64,000 bases of DNA, taken from Variovorax boronicumulans (GTDB taxonomy: Bacteria; Pseudomonadota; Gammaproteobacteria; Burkholderiales; Burkholderiaceae_C). The stretch covers positions 372,001 to 436,000 of the forward strand of contig NZ_JAUSSG010000001.1 of the NCBI RefSeq assembly GCF_030812215.1, written 5' to 3'. A program made the translations under genes and the position numbers. The notes below the pieces were generated by a model, which saw only the letters and a program-made list of their open reading frames with translations, was not told where the DNA came from and did no database searches. Below, in pieces: positions 33,106 through 48,844 of the stretch; the stretch's first letter is position 1, and each line of letters begins with the position of its first letter.

Positions 33106-34164
33106 CTAAATACTCGTTAGTATTCCGCTACCAGGAGTGCGTAGCGCTTTAAGCCAACGAGCAAGAGAGGCTCTTTCTTCAACCCTCACTGGATATGACC
33201 GTGCACTACACAAACGTTGAGACCCCGGAGCAATACGAGATGATGTAACTATTAATCCGGATTCTGCCCCTTCGTGAACAACATCAGCCCAAAGCGCTTT
33301 AACAATCACCTGCTCAATTGAGGATTTCTGCCTCTTGCATTGAATGAGAATTGTCGGAGGATTGCCATTTTTGTTAATTTTCGGTTTCCACACTCGAATA
33401 TCTACCCCGCCATCTCCGCGACCAGGCCCCATTTCCACATCGTATCCAGCACGTGAGAAAAATTCGCCAGACAAGCCTTCGAACTTTCGCCAATTCATTG
33501 TGTCAATGGCCGAAAAGTTTGCCCCTAAGTAGTCAAGAAATCTTTGATCGATGAAATGTCCATTAGGCGCATCCAATGATTCACTTGAAAATAACTCTTT
33601 TAATTCTATTGTGCCATTCCAATCTATTCGTCTGAAGCGGTCAAACTCGCATAAGGAGCCGATTCGATAAAGGTACATCATGTCAACGATCTCTTTTGCC
33701 AGTTCTTGCCCCAAATACCCCCATCTTTCTTCTGCATTTCTAAGAAATTGGCTCAACTCCAATCCTGGCTTTGGCAATAGCCAATCTTTCTCCCCTGCGA
33801 GTAAATCAAAAACTCCTTCGATCACTGACTGACGAATCGCGTCATTTCTAGGTGAAAACCGAAAGAACGTTGGGGCATGATAGGCGACCGGATGGGGCAA
33901 CACTCCCAATCGATGAAGAATCATCTGAAACGAATCCAGCAATTCGTGATGATGTATAGACACATGAGTGGCTTCGGCGCTGGAAAGCTGGGTGTGCAGC
34001 TTGCTTTTTATGTCGGTGTGCGATATCAACTCATCAAGCGACAAAGCCAATCCAGATTTAAATCCAATTTGTTCACTGATGTAGGCAACAAAGAGGTCGC
34101 GAGGCAAAAAGATGCCGCTCATAAAATCTCTTGGGGAGTCATTTATAATTGACTTCCATTTCAA
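33106..34164 (-). CDS. Mrr-like restriction endonuclease domain protein
   Basis: 352-residue protein. The C-terminal part (about 220-345) is an Mrr-type PD-(D/E)xK nuclease: WRKFEGLSGEFFSRAGYDVE, catalytic GRGDGGVDI (248-256, Asp255) and IQCKRQK (274-280, QxK), followed by the usual GLIVTSS strand. The first 200 residues are an unrecognised helical domain. Mrr-family enzymes cut modified or foreign DNA. Base composition is clearly AT-richer than the genome background, pointing to horizontal transfer. Same strand as the zinc-hook ATPase, 162 bases downstream of it. Target specificity is unknown. Confidence 0.85.
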   Translation of the reverse strand: MKWKSIINDSPRDFMSGIFLPRDLFVAYISEQIGFKSGLALSLDELISHTDIKSKLHTQLSSAEATHVSIHHHELLDSFQMILHRLGVLPHPVAYHAPTFFRFSPRNDAIRQSVIEGVFDLLAGEKDWLLPKPGLELSQFLRNAEERWGYLGQELAKEIVDMMYLYRIGSLCEFDRFRRIDWNGTIELKELFSSESLDAPNGHFIDQRFLDYLGANFSAIDTMNWRKFEGLSGEFFSRAGYDVEMGPGRGDGGVDIRVWKPKINKNGNPPTILIQCKRQKSSIEQVIVKALWADVVHEGAESGLIVTSSRIAPGSQRLCSARSYPVRVEERASLARWLKALRTPGSGILTSI

Positions 34165-34326
34165 AATGATGGAAATAAACGACGGCTCGAATAGAAGTTA
34201 ATCTACCTATCGGGATAGGGGCTGCGGCTTATTTCAATCCAAATTTCTGTTCCTGGTCGACTGCAGTCATATCGGCGCATCAATTATGATGCCGTGTGCC
34301 GATACCACTTTTCAGCGGGAGACCCA

Positions 34327-36426
34327 CTATTGGATCGTGGCAACGTATTTGTCGCATTCCTTGATAACGAAGTGCGGGACCAATTGGTATTCACGCGGGT
34401 TGAGTTGATAAATGTAGTTATTCTCGATGTGAAAAGCCTCGTTGATAAACTTCAAGATGACATTGGACTTGACCTGGTCTTCCTCATGATCAAAAAGAAT
34501 ACGGTAGAGGTGCAGCTTTTCGTAGTTGCTGAGTGAAGCATGGTAGAGCTGCTTCATTTGCTGTTTATCAGTGACCAGACTAAGGGCTGCCGCGTAACTG
34601 AAGTCGGGAATTTTTTCGAGGACAGCCTCACATCCCGCTTTGATTTCTTCGACAGTCATATCTCGCAGTTCTCCACCTTCGAATTTCTTTGGAGCGGGAC
34701 GCTTGTGAAAGACGTTTGACAGAATGTCAAACGCATTGCCCTTTTGCTGCGTCACCTCCAGCAGGCGGCGAAGGTAGACAAGTCTGTTTAAAAGCGGGAT
34801 CGGCTGTGCAATATTTTCATGATTGATGTCAATGAAAGTCTTAATCTGCGCCCGCGTAATGATCTTCTCGTAAAGAATGCCATCCTTGTTTTCAAGGAAG
34901 GCGACGGCGGGCTTGGTGAATCGGTCTGAATGGTGAACGACCATGTCCACCACGGGGTCAAGATCATGAGTCAGCAAAAGCACGGTTTTCCCGCGCAGTG
35001 ACTGCCCCCCTTGGAAGAGCATTTCGATGATGGCGTACTTCTTGTTCTTATCGAACGATGAAATGGGGTCATCCAGCACGATCAATTTGGGATCGGACCT
35101 GACCGCATCGAACATGAAAAGGACCAAGGCGATGGCGTTTCTTTCGCCAAAACTCAGGTGATCCCGCACATTGCTGACCGATTGCTCAGGAAACTCTAAA
35201 TGCGTGAGTAGTAGCTTGTGTTTGGAATCCGCACCTTCTCGCAATTCGACTCTATAAGAGTAGCCCGCATTCGCGAGGAAGTCATTAATGTGCGTGCTGT
35301 AGGCTTTGACTAGACGTTCGATCGTAGTTCGCTGCTTAGCAATGGCACCCTGCAATGCACCCGCCTTTTCGATCAGAATCTGAATACTCTCGTTGATGAT
35401 CTGAACCTTAGCTGCGGTTTCCTCCGATTTGAGGTGGTAATAAAGTCCCAAATCAATTTTGTACGATCCTAATTCGTCAATAACTTTTGTGACATCTTTG
35501 AGTGAGCCAAAGCCGATGGCTCGGTTTTGCTTGAACTTCCCGGCCAAGCGTTCAATTTGCGTTTTTACCTCATTCAGAAAGGCGACTTGCTCGTCCGTAT
35601 ATTTTTCAGTATTTTTGACGAATTCTGAAATCTTGTCTTTCGTGGCCGTTGAGAAGTATTTGTTAAGGCGGTCAAAAGTGCTGACAATTTTGTTGAGCGT
35701 TTCAATGGATTTCGGGTCGTAGGCTTGCGAGACCTTGTCTATTGTTTCGCGTTTGGTCTTGATGTCGCTGGTGCAGTACGGGCAATCAGAACCGAAAGGG
35801 AGGTAGCTTGCTCCCTCTTGCTGCCACCGAATCCACTTGTATCCGGATTCGTGGCGGATGTACGGTGTATATGCTTCCAGTCCGACAGGGATATTTGCAA
35901 CCTTGTTGCCGTCCTTGAAGGCCTTCGCGATGTTGCCGGCTGCATGGATACCGGTCTTCACCGGCTTGCCGAAACTGCTGCTAATCTCCTCAAAGTCGGC
36001 AAGAAGGATGTCGACTTCGGGGTCCGTCGAAATCGAACTCTTGAAGTCTTGAATCAGTTCCTCGATCTTCTGCAGGCCATCGTCGTAGTCCTGCGTCTTG
36101 ATGAATATCTCGAAGCTGCCCTTCAGCAAGTCATCTTGCTGAAAAACAAAGCCGTTGATGTAATCTTCGTTGAAGATCCTCGTGGACGCGATGTCGTCTA
36201 TACCCGTGATGCTGGGGACTGCTGTGGCAGCTGCGCGGTGTTTGAACGGGATTAGGTTGGCGAGTTTTTTCGCGGCACCATTTTTTTCTTCGACCGCGTA
36301 CGCTATTGCCTTTGCGATGGTGCTTTTGCCTGTGCCGTTGATCGCGTATTTGATGTTGAGTACGCCCTCGGTGATCGCGATCTGGCCGCGTTCGATGTTG
36401 TTGCAATGCTCTAGTTCGACCTGCAT
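34327..36426 (-). CDS. RloC/PrrC-like AAA ATPase with zinc hook (putative anti-phage nuclease)
   Basis: 699-residue SMC/Rad50-like ATPase of the AAA_13 type. Walker A is AINGTGKST (28-36), with Ala replacing the usual first Gly. A CPYC zinc hook lies at 215-218 and is followed by helical coiled-coil segments. Next are the ABC signature LSFGERNA (424-431), Walker B KLIVLDDP (447-454) and switch His487. The C-terminal about 200 residues contain R553-x3-E557 and His574 (in NVFHKR), similar in order to the Arg-Glu-His triad of the PrrC/RloC anticodon nucleases. RloC enzymes respond to DNA damage or phage and cleave tRNA. tRNA cleavage here is inference. AT-rich, likely transferred. Confidence 0.8.
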   Translation of the reverse strand: MQVELEHCNNIERGQIAITEGVLNIKYAINGTGKSTIAKAIAYAVEEKNGAAKKLANLIPFKHRAAATAVPSITGIDDIASTRIFNEDYINGFVFQQDDLLKGSFEIFIKTQDYDDGLQKIEELIQDFKSSISTDPEVDILLADFEEISSSFGKPVKTGIHAAGNIAKAFKDGNKVANIPVGLEAYTPYIRHESGYKWIRWQQEGASYLPFGSDCPYCTSDIKTKRETIDKVSQAYDPKSIETLNKIVSTFDRLNKYFSTATKDKISEFVKNTEKYTDEQVAFLNEVKTQIERLAGKFKQNRAIGFGSLKDVTKVIDELGSYKIDLGLYYHLKSEETAAKVQIINESIQILIEKAGALQGAIAKQRTTIERLVKAYSTHINDFLANAGYSYRVELREGADSKHKLLLTHLEFPEQSVSNVRDHLSFGERNAIALVLFMFDAVRSDPKLIVLDDPISSFDKNKKYAIIEMLFQGGQSLRGKTVLLLTHDLDPVVDMVVHHSDRFTKPAVAFLENKDGILYEKIITRAQIKTFIDINHENIAQPIPLLNRLVYLRRLLEVTQQKGNAFDILSNVFHKRPAPKKFEGGELRDMTVEEIKAGCEAVLEKIPDFSYAAALSLVTDKQQMKQLYHASLSNYEKLHLYRILFDHEEDQVKSNVILKFINEAFHIENNYIYQLNPREYQLVPHFVIKECDKYVATIQ

Positions 36427-36739
36427 TCCGCCCTCCGTTGTACGTACTGGTCACATATCGGAAGGGTAGCCGGAAACCCATGATATTTGCGCGTTCTTTT
36501 ATTAGGTATTTCCGCCGAAGATGAGCCGCTGTGCAGCGGCTATGCGCCACCTTCGCTCGGTCGAAGTGAACGTTGGCGCGGCTCTAACTGGCAACACACG
36601 AGCACATCATCGTTGTCCAACTAGCGGCCATGACCTTTGCCTCAGCATGAACGGATTGCTGGCTCGTCCTGATCTCAATAGCCGTACGTGGCAGCGACCA
36701 CCCGGACTGCAAAGGCAAACACATTCGCGTAGCTATACT
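36427..36739. other. Intergenic, divergent promoter region
   Basis: Lies between the minus-strand ATPase and the plus-strand structured leader. A TATACT at 36734-36739 resembles a -10 element for the leader, but no good -35 is placed 16-18 bases before it. GC rises back to the chromosomal level across this stretch, so the right edge of the island is probably here. No gene is recognised. Confidence 0.45.
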
Positions 36740-36993
36740 GCGCCCCGTCACGTCAGAACAGACGTGATCGGGATTGGCCTCCCGTTGAAATCACTGCGAC
36801 GCAAGCCGCAGTTACCCCCGCAGGGTCTGCGGCTTCGTCACTCTTGCTTCCTGTTTAGGCGGCTCGATGGGCGGGCGCAAGCCCGGCCGGTTTCACGCAA
36901 GTGGTTTCCCGGTAGGCCAACCCGTCGAGCCGCCGCCTCCGATTGGCCTCGGGTGCGTCGGTTTCAGTAAACCGAAACCCTTGGAGGCCATTC
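36740..36993 (+). promoter_or_regulatory. Structured leader RNA with Shine-Dalgarno-pairing segments
   Basis: Visible elements in order: TCACGTC-agaaca-GACGTGA (36748-36767); CGGGA-TTGGCC-TCCCG (36769-36784); a CGTTG/CGACG hairpin (36783-36801); AAGCCGCAG/CTGCGGCTT, 9 bp (36803-36835); a 10-bp stem GGCGGCTCGA/TCGAGCCGCC (36858-36934) enclosing two GCAA-loop hairpins; CCGA-TTGGCC-TCGG (36939-36952); TCGGTTT-cagt-AAACCGA (36958-36975). The Shine-Dalgarno segment GGAGGCCA (36983-36990) is complementary to TGGCCTCC at 36775-36782 (8 nt) and to TGGCCTC at 36944-36950 (7 nt). AGGCCAA at 36914-36920 can compete for either TTGGCCT. The layout resembles C4 antisense-type control of the gene at 36994. 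Confidence 0.55.
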
Positions 36994-37272
36994 ATGGCTC
37001 ACGTTCCCCCGCTCCCCGAATCCCTTGACCCCAGCAGCGCCGCATCGCTCGCGCTGCGGGCCTGCGACAACATCGACAGCCTGCACGACGTGCGGCTCGC
37101 CTACGCGTGCATCGAAAAGCTCGTCGTTCCGCAGCATGTGAACGACACAGAAGAAATCCACCCCATCCGCAGCGAGCTGGGCGCCCTGATGCAGCTGGTG
37201 AACGAAGAACTGCAGCGCCGCATCGACACGGCCGACGCCACGATTCAATCGCTGCGTCTGGCGCTGGGCTAG
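36994..37272 (+). CDS. Small helical hypothetical protein under leader control
   Basis: 92-residue protein beginning MAHVPPLPESLDPSSAASLA and ending IDTADATIQSLRLALG. Mostly amphipathic helices with three conserved-looking blocks (LALRACDNIDSLHDV, LAYACIEKLVV, ELGALMQLVNEELQRRID). No signal peptide or membrane span. TTGGAGG six bases before the ATG is a good ribosome-binding site, but the leader can pair over it. An in-frame ATG 51 bases upstream lies inside the leader and is rejected. Family unknown to me; small regulators or phage-derived proteins are possible. Confidence 0.7.
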   Translation: MAHVPPLPESLDPSSAASLALRACDNIDSLHDVRLAYACIEKLVVPQHVNDTEEIHPIRSELGALMQLVNEELQRRIDTADATIQSLRLALG

Positions 37273-37382
37273 ATGTCCCTGTGATGAGGTAGCGCCGCTG
37301 CTGCAGCGCAGATCAATGGACTGATTCGTCCTCTGCCCGGGTCTTCGGCTCGCACGGCGCGAACCGAAGACCTCGACTCCCC

Positions 37383-38747
37383 TCAAGGCGCCAGCGTCAG
37401 CTTGAAGATCTGGTTGCCATTGGATGCCCCCACATAGATCGTCTGGTCCTCAGCCACCGCCACACCGATCGGGAAATTGAACGACAACGCCGCGCCGGTG
37501 CTGTCCCGCAGCGTGCTGATCTCGCCCGCGGGCGTGACCATGCGCACCACGCCGTCCCAGGCATGCGTGAGGAACACGTTGTCATGCGCATCCACCGTCA
37601 CGCCGTAGGAGTACCCGAGCCCGGCCGGCGTGGCGGCCGTTCCGTCGACGACGCCGGGGCCCGTGCCGGTGCTGCAATCGCCCAGCAGCGTGCTCACCGT
37701 GGCGCTGGCCACGTCGATCTTGCGCAGGCACAGACCGTCGGTGTCCGTGTCGTACAGCGTGCGGCCATCGCGGCTGATCGCCAGGCCCTGCGGGCGTGCG
37801 AGCTGGGCGCTCGTGCCGACGCCGTCGAGGTAGGCCTGCGTGCCGTCGCCCGCCAGCGTGCTCGTGGTGCCATCGGCCGCGACCTTGCGCACGCGCTTGT
37901 TTTCCAGGTCCGCCACGAACAGGTTGCCCGCGCCGTCCAGCGCGATGCCGGCAGGGGTGTTGAACATCACCGCGGCCGGGCTGTCGGCATACCCGCTGCT
38001 GCCGGTGCCGACCCAGGTGCTGTAGGTCGTGGCGTTGGGAGTGATCCTGTTGATGCGATGCTGGTCGCTCACGTAGAGCGTGCCGTCGGCGGACAGTGCA
38101 AGGCCGAATGGCGTGTTCATGCTCATGCCGGGCGTCACCTCGGCGCCGCTGCCGCTGGCCGTGTCGATCCTGTAGACCGCGCCATTGCCTCCCATGGCCA
38201 CGTACAGGTTCGCGCCGCTGGCGTCCACGACCATCTGATAGGGACGGTTGTAGGTCACCCCGGTCGTCGCCAGCACGGTGGCGATCCAGGGCTTGACCGT
38301 CAGCGTGGCGGCATGGCTGGTCACGCTGCCGTTCGCGCCCGCCACCTGCACGCGCAGTTGCTGGCCGCTGTCGGCCAGTCGATTGGCCGCCGTGGTGAAG
38401 CTGTCGCCGGTGGCGCCCGGCACATCGGTCCAGCTGGTACCGCCATCCACGCTGCGCTGCCACTGGTAGGCCGTCGCGTGCGTGGCCTGGACCTTTAACG
38501 TGGCGGCCGCGCCCTGCCCCACCGTGGTGTCCGACGGCTGCGTGGTGATGGCGGTCGTGGTGTCTTCCCGCGTGGGCGGCGGTGTGCCCTGGGCGGCTGG
38601 GGCCGGGGCCGGTGCGGGAGCGACGGCGAAGCCGGGGAAGCCAGCGCCTGCGCCTCCGCCACCACCGCAAGCCACCAGCACCATGTTCATCATCAGCAGT
38701 GCGGCGGGTGTACGCCATGCACGGGAAACGGTACGACGGGTATTCAT
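37383..38747 (-). CDS. Lipoprotein with Ig-like domain and NHL beta-propeller
   Basis: 454-residue exported protein. The signal ends in a lipobox, MVLVACGGGGG, followed by a Gly/Pro/Ala-rich linker. An Ig-like domain (about residues 65-150: ITTQPSDTTVGQGAAATLKV, AYQWQRSVDGGTSW) precedes an NHL-type six-bladed propeller with repeated blades such as FGLALSADGTLYVSDQHRIN and AGIALDGAGNLFVADLENKR. The start at 38747 is fixed by AAGGAGG eight bases upstream; the longer frame lacks a site. A surface or periplasmic binding role is likely; the ligand is unknown. Stands alone, downstream of the two-component pair. Confidence 0.85.
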   Translation of the reverse strand: MNTRRTVSRAWRTPAALLMMNMVLVACGGGGGAGAGFPGFAVAPAPAPAPAAQGTPPPTREDTTTAITTQPSDTTVGQGAAATLKVQATHATAYQWQRSVDGGTSWTDVPGATGDSFTTAANRLADSGQQLRVQVAGANGSVTSHAATLTVKPWIATVLATTGVTYNRPYQMVVDASGANLYVAMGGNGAVYRIDTASGSGAEVTPGMSMNTPFGLALSADGTLYVSDQHRINRITPNATTYSTWVGTGSSGYADSPAAVMFNTPAGIALDGAGNLFVADLENKRVRKVAADGTTSTLAGDGTQAYLDGVGTSAQLARPQGLAISRDGRTLYDTDTDGLCLRKIDVASATVSTLLGDCSTGTGPGVVDGTAATPAGLGYSYGVTVDAHDNVFLTHAWDGVVRMVTPAGEISTLRDSTGAALSFNFPIGVAVAEDQTIYVGASNGNQIFKLTLAP

Positions 38748-47950: not shown

Positions 47951-48844
47951 TCAACGCCCCGTGGAAACCTCGATTTCGACGCGCCGGTTCGGCGCCAGGC
48001 AATCGATCAGTGCCGCGCGGCTGGCCTGCGCGCACTGCACCTTGGGCTCCGATTCGCCCCTGCCCTGCACCTGCACGCTCTGCGCCGGCACGCCGGCCTG
48101 CACGAGGTAGTCGCGCACGGTCGTCGCGCGCGCCAGCGAGAGCGCCTGGTTGTAGCTTTCGCTGCCGAGCCGGTCGGTGTGGCCGGTCACCCGGACCGCA
48201 TCCACCGGCCTCGGGCTGGCCTTGATGTCGCTCGCCAGCGCATCGAGCTTGCGCCGGCCGTCGGGCAACAGATCGGCCAGCGAACGGCCATCGAAGCGGA
48301 AGAGCCCGTCGGCGCCCAGGGTCGTCGTCCTCGCGGGCGCCGGCGCAGGCTGGATGACCGCAACCGGCCGCGCCGCTGCGGGCGGCGGCTTGAGCAGGTC
48401 GGCGCAGCCCGGGCCCTTCCAGTACGAGCCATTGACCAGCACATCCGCATTGAAGCGAACCATGTACTGGCAGGTGATGTATTCCGGACCGGCGCCGGTG
48501 CGGAAATGGAAGATGTAGTTCCACTCGCGCACGCCGGCCAGCCCTTCGCTGAAGTGCGGAAAGCCCAGCAGCTCGCGCACTTGGTCCTTGCCCATGCCGG
48601 TGCGCATGGTGCGCAGGGCCTCCAGGTTCGGGAAGGCGCCCTGCCGCCACGTGGCCGAATCGAGTGCGGGGAAGTCCTCGTCCTTCGGCGGCGGCGGGTT
48701 CTCCGAAGCGGCGCGGGCCTGCATCTCGGGCGTGATGGTGTAGCTCGTCGCGCAGCCGCCGGCCAACAGCGCGGCAAGGCAGAGCGCGGCGAGCGGCGTG
48801 GCGCGAATCGCGACGGAGGTCCTGGCTTGAGAAAGCTTGTTCAT
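47951..48844 (-). CDS. OmpA-family lipoprotein with BamE/SmpA-like domain
   Basis: 297-residue outer-membrane lipoprotein. The signal peptide ends in LLAGGC (lipobox). A middle region resembling SmpA/OmlA/BamE (NLEALRTMRTGMGKDQVREL, LGFPHFSEGLAGVREWNYIF) is followed by an OmpA C-terminal peptidoglycan-binding domain (VRVTGHTDRLGSESYNQALS, LARATTVRDYLVQAGV, NRRVEIEVS). The ATG at 48844 fits the signal peptide; the frame opens further upstream. It starts 31 bases after the trimeric autotransporter stop, so the two form an operon and it may help adhesin assembly or anchoring. Confidence 0.88.
   Translation of the reverse strand: MNKLSQARTSVAIRATPLAALCLAALLAGGCATSYTITPEMQARAASENPPPPKDEDFPALDSATWRQGAFPNLEALRTMRTGMGKDQVRELLGFPHFSEGLAGVREWNYIFHFRTGAGPEYITCQYMVRFNADVLVNGSYWKGPGCADLLKPPPAAARPVAVIQPAPAPARTTTLGADGLFRFDGRSLADLLPDGRRKLDALASDIKASPRPVDAVRVTGHTDRLGSESYNQALSLARATTVRDYLVQAGVPAQSVQVQGRGESEPKVQCAQASRAALIDCLAPNRRVEIEVSTGR

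Follow-up and report, generated by a model that had tools for sequence, protein, structure and literature searches.

A chromosomal relative of the phage P1 C4 antisense RNA region in the leader of a small-protein gene of Variovorax

The closest described systems are the C4 regions of phages P1 and P7, as set out in the relevant passages of PMC5320573 and PMC8198154. In the annotated P1 record, a1 (48255-48261), b1 (48269-48276), C4 (48343-48419), a2 (48423-48429), b2 (48452-48459) and icd (48470-48691) follow one another, and the Icd protein inhibits growth and Z-ring formation, according to the portion of PMC11897509 that deals with it. C4 RNAs also occur outside phages: multicopy chromosomal C4 RNAs with variable a' loops are described in Acinetobacter baumannii as Group 1 sRNAs in the corresponding part of PMC5320573. 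A further point of comparison is the isrK locus of Gifsy-1, which is reported in PMC4825925 to work by alternative structures.

Here we describe a leader in a 64,000-nucleotide stretch of Variovorax boronicumulans DNA (the window, whose positions are used throughout), lying before an open reading frame (ORF) of 92 codons. We read it, by sequence and by analogy, as a chromosomal relative of the P1 c4-icd region in which C4 probably represses its own downstream ORF, and we put the probability of this reading at roughly 0.8.

A C4 RNA before a small open reading frame

A cmscan of the whole window returned two matches above cut-off, one tRNA and one C4 RNA (RF01695), the latter at 51.5 bits against a gathering cut-off of 45 and spanning model positions 1-87. 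Close-up scans of the sequence just upstream gave c4-a1b1 (RF03163) at 23.7 bits and isrK (RF01394) at 26.7 bits, below their respective cut-offs of 46.7 and 50; in related loci c4-a1b1 matches in 13 of 17, at 23.8-42.9 bits. Across 54 clustered modules the C4 helices carry compensatory changes (pair 16-31 is AU, GC or CG, and pair 19-28 is GC, CG or AU), and the outer stem, the tetraloop hairpin and the b' hairpin are all present with covariation, in a collection for which the search pattern had predetermined parts of the outer and b' stems while leaving a1 and a2 free. The a' and b' elements of C4 complement a2 and b2 just before the first ORF, with b2 at the Shine-Dalgarno (SD) segment. Judged from its sequence, the leader is a phage-P1-type C4 antisense RNA region.

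A preliminary description of this DNA had proposed C4-type antisense control of the 92-residue gene, and the Rfam score, the compensatory helices and the co-variation of a' and b' with a1, a2 and b1, b2 (below) all support that proposal. It had pointed to the Infernal comparison with Rfam that here places C4 above its gathering score, and to helices which prove to be conserved, with covariation, upstream of homologues of the 92-residue gene. What it saw as a 10-bp stem enclosing two GCAA hairpins is the C4 stem (GGCGGCTCG/CGAGCCGCC), and its AGGCCAA segment, able to pair with either loop, is the a' key of C4, to which the copy's own a1 and a2 are complementary. It missed the second key (b', GCAAGTGGTTTC, with b2, GAAACCCTTG), the b1 copy at 36787-36798 and the known-family status of AGGCCAA.

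The cassette extends over about 545 bp of the forward strand (36726..37275), its elements arranged in a P1-immI-like order: -10-like box, a1, b1, hairpin, C4, a2, b2 touching the SD, and ORF (Table 1). In a blastn comparison with 11 loci representing nine distinct copies, seven of the nine align from 36726-36729 to 37238-37275, the homology between them beginning at the -10 region and ending near the stop codon; the exceptions are the C18 copy (L002), whose alignment begins at 36794, and L038, a mosaic. Both L038 and L039 carry a remnant C4 directly upstream of another module, and in the L038 remnant 84 bases align with the window C4 at 98.8% identity, against 75-82% in the other aligned parts of that locus, as if the C4 core had been exchanged. 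Transcription would be expected to start at about 36746, although no consensus promoter and no terminator was called at the cassette, the hairpin at 36803-36835 included. The trinucleotide GGC is present at the 5' end of the C4 stem (36858).

Table 1. Elements of the cassette in window coordinates
Feature	Position	Strand	Basis or remark
-10-like box TATACT	36734..36739	+	Position; similar box at the same place in most copies, by eye
5' hairpin GTCACGTC-AGAACA-GACGTGAT	36747..36768	+	Sequence, fold
a1 hairpin CGGGATTGGCCTCCCG	36769..36784	+	a1 key TTGGCCT at 36774-36780
b1	36787..36798	+	Complementary to the C4 b' loop
Terminator-like hairpin AAGCCGCAG...CTGCGGCTT	36803..36835	+	Between a1b1 and C4; without a T run
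C4 antisense RNA (RF01695)	36852..36940	+	Rfam match, covariation
C4 stem GGCGGCTCG/CGAGCCGCC	36858-36866/36926-36934	+	Encloses two GCAA hairpins
C4 b' loop	36892..36908	+	Contains CAC-GCAA-GTG; b' key GCAAGTGGTTTC at 36897-36908
C4 a' key AGGCCAA	36914..36920	+	
a2 target TTGGCCT	36943..36949	+	Within hairpin CCGATTGGCCTCGG, 36939-36952
Short inverted repeat CGGTTTCAGTAAACCG	36959..36974	+	Between a2 and b2; sequence; paired in the leader fold too
b2 target GAAACCCTTG	36974..36983	+	Overlaps the first base of the SD
Shine-Dalgarno segment GGAGGCC	36983..36989	+	GGAGGCCA at 36983-36990
CDS of the 92-aa protein	36994..37272	+	Unnamed family; two predicted helices

Matching keys within and between modules

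Modules were gathered from near relatives (C4 is present in 15 of 41 such genomes), by a DNA pattern run over named genome contigs, and from fetched stretches. The DNA pattern returned 85 stretches; among the 80 listed, 64 are from Variovorax and the rest mostly from other Burkholderiales, with some distant taxa. A C4-core pattern yielded 125 distinct modules, 123 of them with full flanks. Within these 123, the 7-nt a' key exactly complements its own a2 in 110 and its own a1 in 115, the 7-mer being inexact in the remaining 13 and 8, against exact matches on foreign a2 in 14.9% and on foreign a1 in 15.7% of 15,006 cross pairs; no more than 34 exact a' matches occurred in any of 2000 shuffles. 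After clustering at 90% identity the own matches stand at 44 of 54 (a2) and 48 of 54 (a1), versus 13.9% and 15.2% for cross pairs. By parsimony, the first key found upstream of family genes undergoes 48 changes (155 of 165 genes typed; weakly resolved FastTree protein tree built from few columns), yet the own pairing is kept in most modules, which we count in favour of the C4 model. One natural mixed module, L054 2506 (-), combines a C4 and a2 of the TTGGAAG key with an a1 of the TTGGCGT key.

For key b, b2 was scored as the 14 bases before the SD plus four more, in the 119 modules left once the 4 of 123 without a recognised SD were dropped. The mean energy of b' with its own b2 is -14.6 kcal/mol versus -7.4 kcal/mol for cross pairs, and the own b2 lies within the best tenth of targets in 111 of the 119 modules; with b1, which directly follows the a1 hairpin, the corresponding values are -18.3 and -10.4 kcal/mol (48 modules).

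The V. boronicumulans genome itself holds five C4 copies at or above the cut-off, on five contigs, with a' keys AGGCCAA, AGACCAA, ACGCCAA (twice) and CTTCCAA, along with which a1 and a2 vary; the C18 copy has no a1. Each a' is exact on its own a2, and both ACGCCAA copies also match each other's a2. By key a, most of these copies are predicted from sequence to silence mainly themselves, C18 and C24 sharing a key. By b energies the own pair is not always the best: the b' of C11 beats the own b' on the window and C24 targets (-21.1 versus -11.9 kcal/mol on the window target), and that of C3 equals the window copy's own on the window target (-12.1 versus -11.9 kcal/mol), a' being mismatched on that target in both cases. 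With respect to possible selection for differing keys within one genome, same-key pairs number 13 versus 18.4 after permutation (9% of permutations as low), and pairs sharing both a and b number one versus 3.2 (17% as low). A trans network, in which a C4 would silence family genes of the same key that lack a C4 (below), was not supported: a C4 of the same key is present in the genome for 10 out of 27 typed C4-less genes, where 13.0 +/- 2.5 are expected, the C4 sets per genome being incomplete, and with 16 typed genes the result was 6 versus 6.2 expected.

Pairing at the ribosome-binding site and a proposed mechanism

The 266-nt leader (36740-37005) folds at -134.1 kcal/mol, versus -102.1 +/- 5.2 kcal/mol for dinucleotide shuffles (z -6.2; none of 200 shuffles reached so low an energy). 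Its minimum-energy structure joins a2 (36944-36949) to the SD (36985-36990), in line with the earlier proposal, and the a' and b' strands of C4 to a1 and b1. The strings on which that proposal was built, CGGGATTGGCCTCCCG, CCGATTGGCCTCGG, AGGCCAA, TGGCCTCC (36775-36782) and GGAGGCCA, all lie where they had been placed, and TGGCCTCC is in the window copy the perfect complement of GGAGGCCA. Together with predicted energies in this copy of -16.3 kcal/mol for the a1 loop and -13.8 kcal/mol for a2 on the SD, and with a1:SD energies of -14.0 and -12.3 kcal/mol retained in copies C3 and C24, these pairings speak for an RNA switch acting in cis, in which the a1 or a2 loops would pair with the SD directly. 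The complement alone is modest evidence, because perfect complements of GGAGGCCA arise by chance in 0.6% (8 nt) and 5% (7 nt) of 5000 Markov-sampled 240-nt sequences, and the comparison across modules tells against such a switch. Two of the 119 modules, each keyed TTGGCCT, have an exact complement of at least 7 nt between a1 loop and SD, and the a1:SD duplex averages -8.3 kcal/mol with the own and -8.4 kcal/mol with a foreign partner (116 modules). Its energy runs by key from -14.5 kcal/mol (TTGGCCT) through -11.8 (TTGGTCT), -10.2 (TTGGCGT) and -7.4 (TTGGACT) to about -5 kcal/mol for the common keys TTGGAAG, TTGACAG and TTAGCAG; in copy C11, a1:SD and a2:SD fall to -4.6 and -3.2 kcal/mol while the a' and b' pairings persist. 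Since own equals foreign and the energy varies by key, the loop:SD pairing is a by-product of the key and not itself a retained feature; we therefore rejected a conserved loop:SD pairing and regard the cis switch as very unlikely. An RNA switch of the kind proposed earlier, in which GGCC pairings exclude one another at the SD, is possible in the window copy without being a conserved feature. With the leader uncut, the fold engages a' and b' with a1 and b1 while a2 lies over the SD, so this copy may be subject to cis effects.

Nested co-folding gave no contact of b2 or the SD with the own C4 in any of the five own-genome pairs, its one strong contact being a foreign pair (the C4 of C11 on b2 and SD of C24); because the same method misses the P1 pair too, we take it as uninformative.

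From what the sequence itself provides (the C4 match, the six key elements, their co-variation and the purifying selection described below), we infer a transcription start, processing and translational repression along the following lines. A single transcript, probably from the start given above, would carry in succession a decoy target (a1b1), C4, the real target (a2b2) and the 92-codon ORF, and RNase P would be expected to cut out C4. The released RNA would pair a' with a2 and b' with b2, and since b2 touches the SD, ribosomes could then not start. Translation of the ORF would be low at steady state, rising when C4 is scarce, as in DNA newly arrived in a naive cell, or is titrated, for example by a1b1 RNA.

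Activation of the IsrK type is a possible, if doubtful, addition to this scheme: a short a1b1 RNA, ended at the hairpin between b1 and C4, would activate translation in trans by displacing or titrating C4. Gifsy-1 isrK is reported to use such alternative structures in the part of PMC4825925 on that locus, and both the sub-threshold isrK match and the pairing of a1 and b1 with C4 a' and b' in the full-leader fold point the same way, whereas the score stays below its cut-off and the hairpin has no T run and was not called as a terminator. Such activation would be compatible with repression by C4.

The gene family, its surroundings and known systems

Pfam and PADLOC give no match to the 92-aa protein at E 0.01, NCBIfam none near a cut-off and PHROGs only weak ones (best E 0.027); tblastn against 50,697 phage and 72,556 plasmid records was negative at the same E threshold, and no match was confirmed in viral contigs searched with the window protein. 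Its AlphaFold2 model consists of two helices (pLDDT 78.5), for which Foldseek found no structural match in the PDB (best E 4.3). Of 100 genomes of the genus, 46 carry the family, with as many as 8 matches per genome. From ungapped segments of 130 genes, in pairs 80-96% identical, the ratio of mean pN to mean pS is 0.36 for pairs with C4 (240 pairs), 0.49 for mixed pairs (134) and 0.45 for C4-less pairs (27); by this measure the family is under purifying selection.

The fetched stretches held 166 distinct family genes, one with too short a flank; among the 165 scored, 131 have a C4 upstream and 34 have none. Of these 34, 25 match the a1 hairpin pattern and 27 hold a known key. Typically a C4-less gene follows a -10-like box, an a1 hairpin and a b1 directly before the SD, as in G456, where the gene is some 3.7 kb away from the NHL gene flanking the window cassette, and in the sixth family gene of the V. 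boronicumulans genome (L281, C10, 3180-3620, minus strand), whose order is -10-like box, hairpin, a1 TTGGCGT, b1, SD and ORF. A cmscan of eight C4-less loci matched c4-a1b1 below the cut-off in five (L275, L304, L309, L327, L332) and not in L281, L301 and L353. Parsimony on a FastTree tree of few columns gives 21 changes in the presence of C4, and starred branches give at least 12. By eye, similar C4-less genes stand in several genomes behind a similar upstream gene that we take to be coq7-like (L305, L306, L310, L343, L352).

These C4-less genes bear on whether the cassette is a type I toxin-antitoxin-like addiction system, the small protein being a growth inhibitor and C4 its antitoxin. The window ORF stands in the position of P1 icd, whose product offers the precedent of an inhibitor of growth and Z-ring formation (the portion of PMC11897509 cited above); yet 34 of 165 genes do without an upstream C4 and C4-less pairs still show constraint (pN/pS 0.45), which would be surprising in a strong toxin unless a1 were repressed by other means. 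The lack of a Pfam, PADLOC or structural match also stands against addiction and says little. We consider addiction unlikely.

The gene after the window ORF encodes an NHL-repeat protein on the opposite strand. With this neighbour, and an ORF that has no Pfam or phage tblastn match and only weak PHROG ones, the cassette shows no downstream antirepressor gene within a phage or prophage of the kind that characterizes a P1-type immI operon. On the other side, an Mrr-type nuclease gene and an AAA_13 ATPase gene adjoin the cassette (33106-36426, minus strand); the ATPase matches the PADLOC candidate defence model PDC-S06 at 869 bits, and the region is likely a defence island. Four relatives with the NHL gene show no homology to the Mrr/AAA_13 region in the 7-8 kb fetched on that side. 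Around modules generally, 120 of 174 distinct neighbour proteins were scanned, giving 85 Pfam families; the best 25 of the 85 largely concern metabolism and regulation and include no integrase, transposase or capsid, and the best 25 of 29 PHROGs include one DNA primase and two DNA methyltransferase families. Most such cassettes in related bacteria seem to lie outside phages. No transposition footprint was seen, there being no shared word longer than 7 nt between 36427-36740 and 37270-37400 and no direct repeats.

The same C4 pattern occurs in 15 predicted viral contigs, some of them near-duplicates, with a' matching the own a2 in 14 of 15 and the own a1 in 13 of 15. Behind the viral leaders (loci L365-L379), six of eight scanned proteins are AntA, Bro-N, KilA-N or Rha proteins and two are unknown; in a profile search of 15 proteins, the small viral-contig protein of L373 matches the window family (E 1.8e-9). 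Since viral contigs carry closely similar leaders, the leader is one that temperate phages have too, the window copy being in no recognisable phage. These viral parallels would suit a leftover of a prophage immunity region without present function, which we nevertheless judge most improbable: integrase, transposase and capsid are missing from the best 25 of the 85 neighbour families, the keys co-vary, and the ORF family is under purifying selection. The idea that chromosomal C4s provide ready-made immunity against the viral contigs was not supported, a matching a' with a b' at least equal to the contig's own being found for only 2 of 15 targets.

In the C4 reading preferred here, a phage antisense RNA, described elsewhere in phages or, in the literature covered, as chromosomal copies with targets at most proposed, is joined to a target next to it and to a gene family that lies outside recognisable phages, and its natural key variants make antisense specificity directly testable. 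A far-reaching extension, which we offer as speculation and think quite unlikely to hold as a whole, is that the 545-bp keyed cassette is a self-contained unit dispersing through Variovorax chromosomes, with every copy silencing its own protein by a private a-plus-b key whose matching sites switch together; that the cassette descends from or feeds temperate-phage immunity regions with the same alphabet of keys; and that the small protein would be set free once the matching C4 is drained, whether by the C4-type target RNA of a phage or by arrival in a naive cell, making the cassette a resident sensor of C4-controlled phages.

The same C4 layout precedes another set of small-protein genes. In 20 DUF6124 loci (L236-L255), Rfam places C4 at or above the cut-off upstream in 14 and c4-a1b1 only in three more; a cruder pattern had given C4 in 15 of 56 loci of Pseudomonas type, of which these 20 are part. 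DUF6124 reaches 29 matches per genome, and some DUF3077 genes directly follow a C4 too, in genomes presumably of Pseudomonas type. The protein families are not detectably related to that of the window ORF: DUF3077 and DUF6124 are absent among Pfam matches of 15 family members at E<=1, and hhalign of the window family with DUF6124/DUF3077 gave a probability of 0.2 of 100. Near the DUF6124 genes of L243 and L246, a TwoAYGGAY RNA scores above cut-off. Across a phylum sample C4 occurs in 62 of 398 genomes, several of which have at least 10. The shared layout suggests a wider, little-studied control of orphan small proteins; the literature covered, which includes few subscription journals, holds no work joining C4 to the window family or to DUF6124.

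Among known systems, P1 and P7, where C4 goes with c4-a1b1, share with the window cassette the C4 family and the order a1-b1-C4-a2-b2-SD-small ORF, and the P1 a' sequence CTGTCAA is one of the Variovorax keys, recurring in 18 of 125 modules. Unlike those of P1 and P7, the window cassette lies in no recognisable phage, its 92-aa ORF belongs to another family with no ant gene after it, many dispersed copies carry different keys, and C4-less relatives exist. IsrK of Gifsy-1, as described in the part of PMC4825925 concerned, resembles the window cassette in that the leader RNA has a hairpin ahead of the ORF section and pairs at long range with RNA further downstream; it differs in that the window leader scores below the isrK cut-off and has neither anrP nor antQ beside its ORF. 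The Group 1 sRNAs of A. baumannii likewise combine many C4 copies per chromosome with variable a' loops, but their targets are proposed and not identified in the section of PMC5320573 on them, whereas each C4 described here comes with a matching target next to it and with an ORF family. Both C4 and its multicopy occurrence were known before; the privately keyed chromosomal cassette is a new form.
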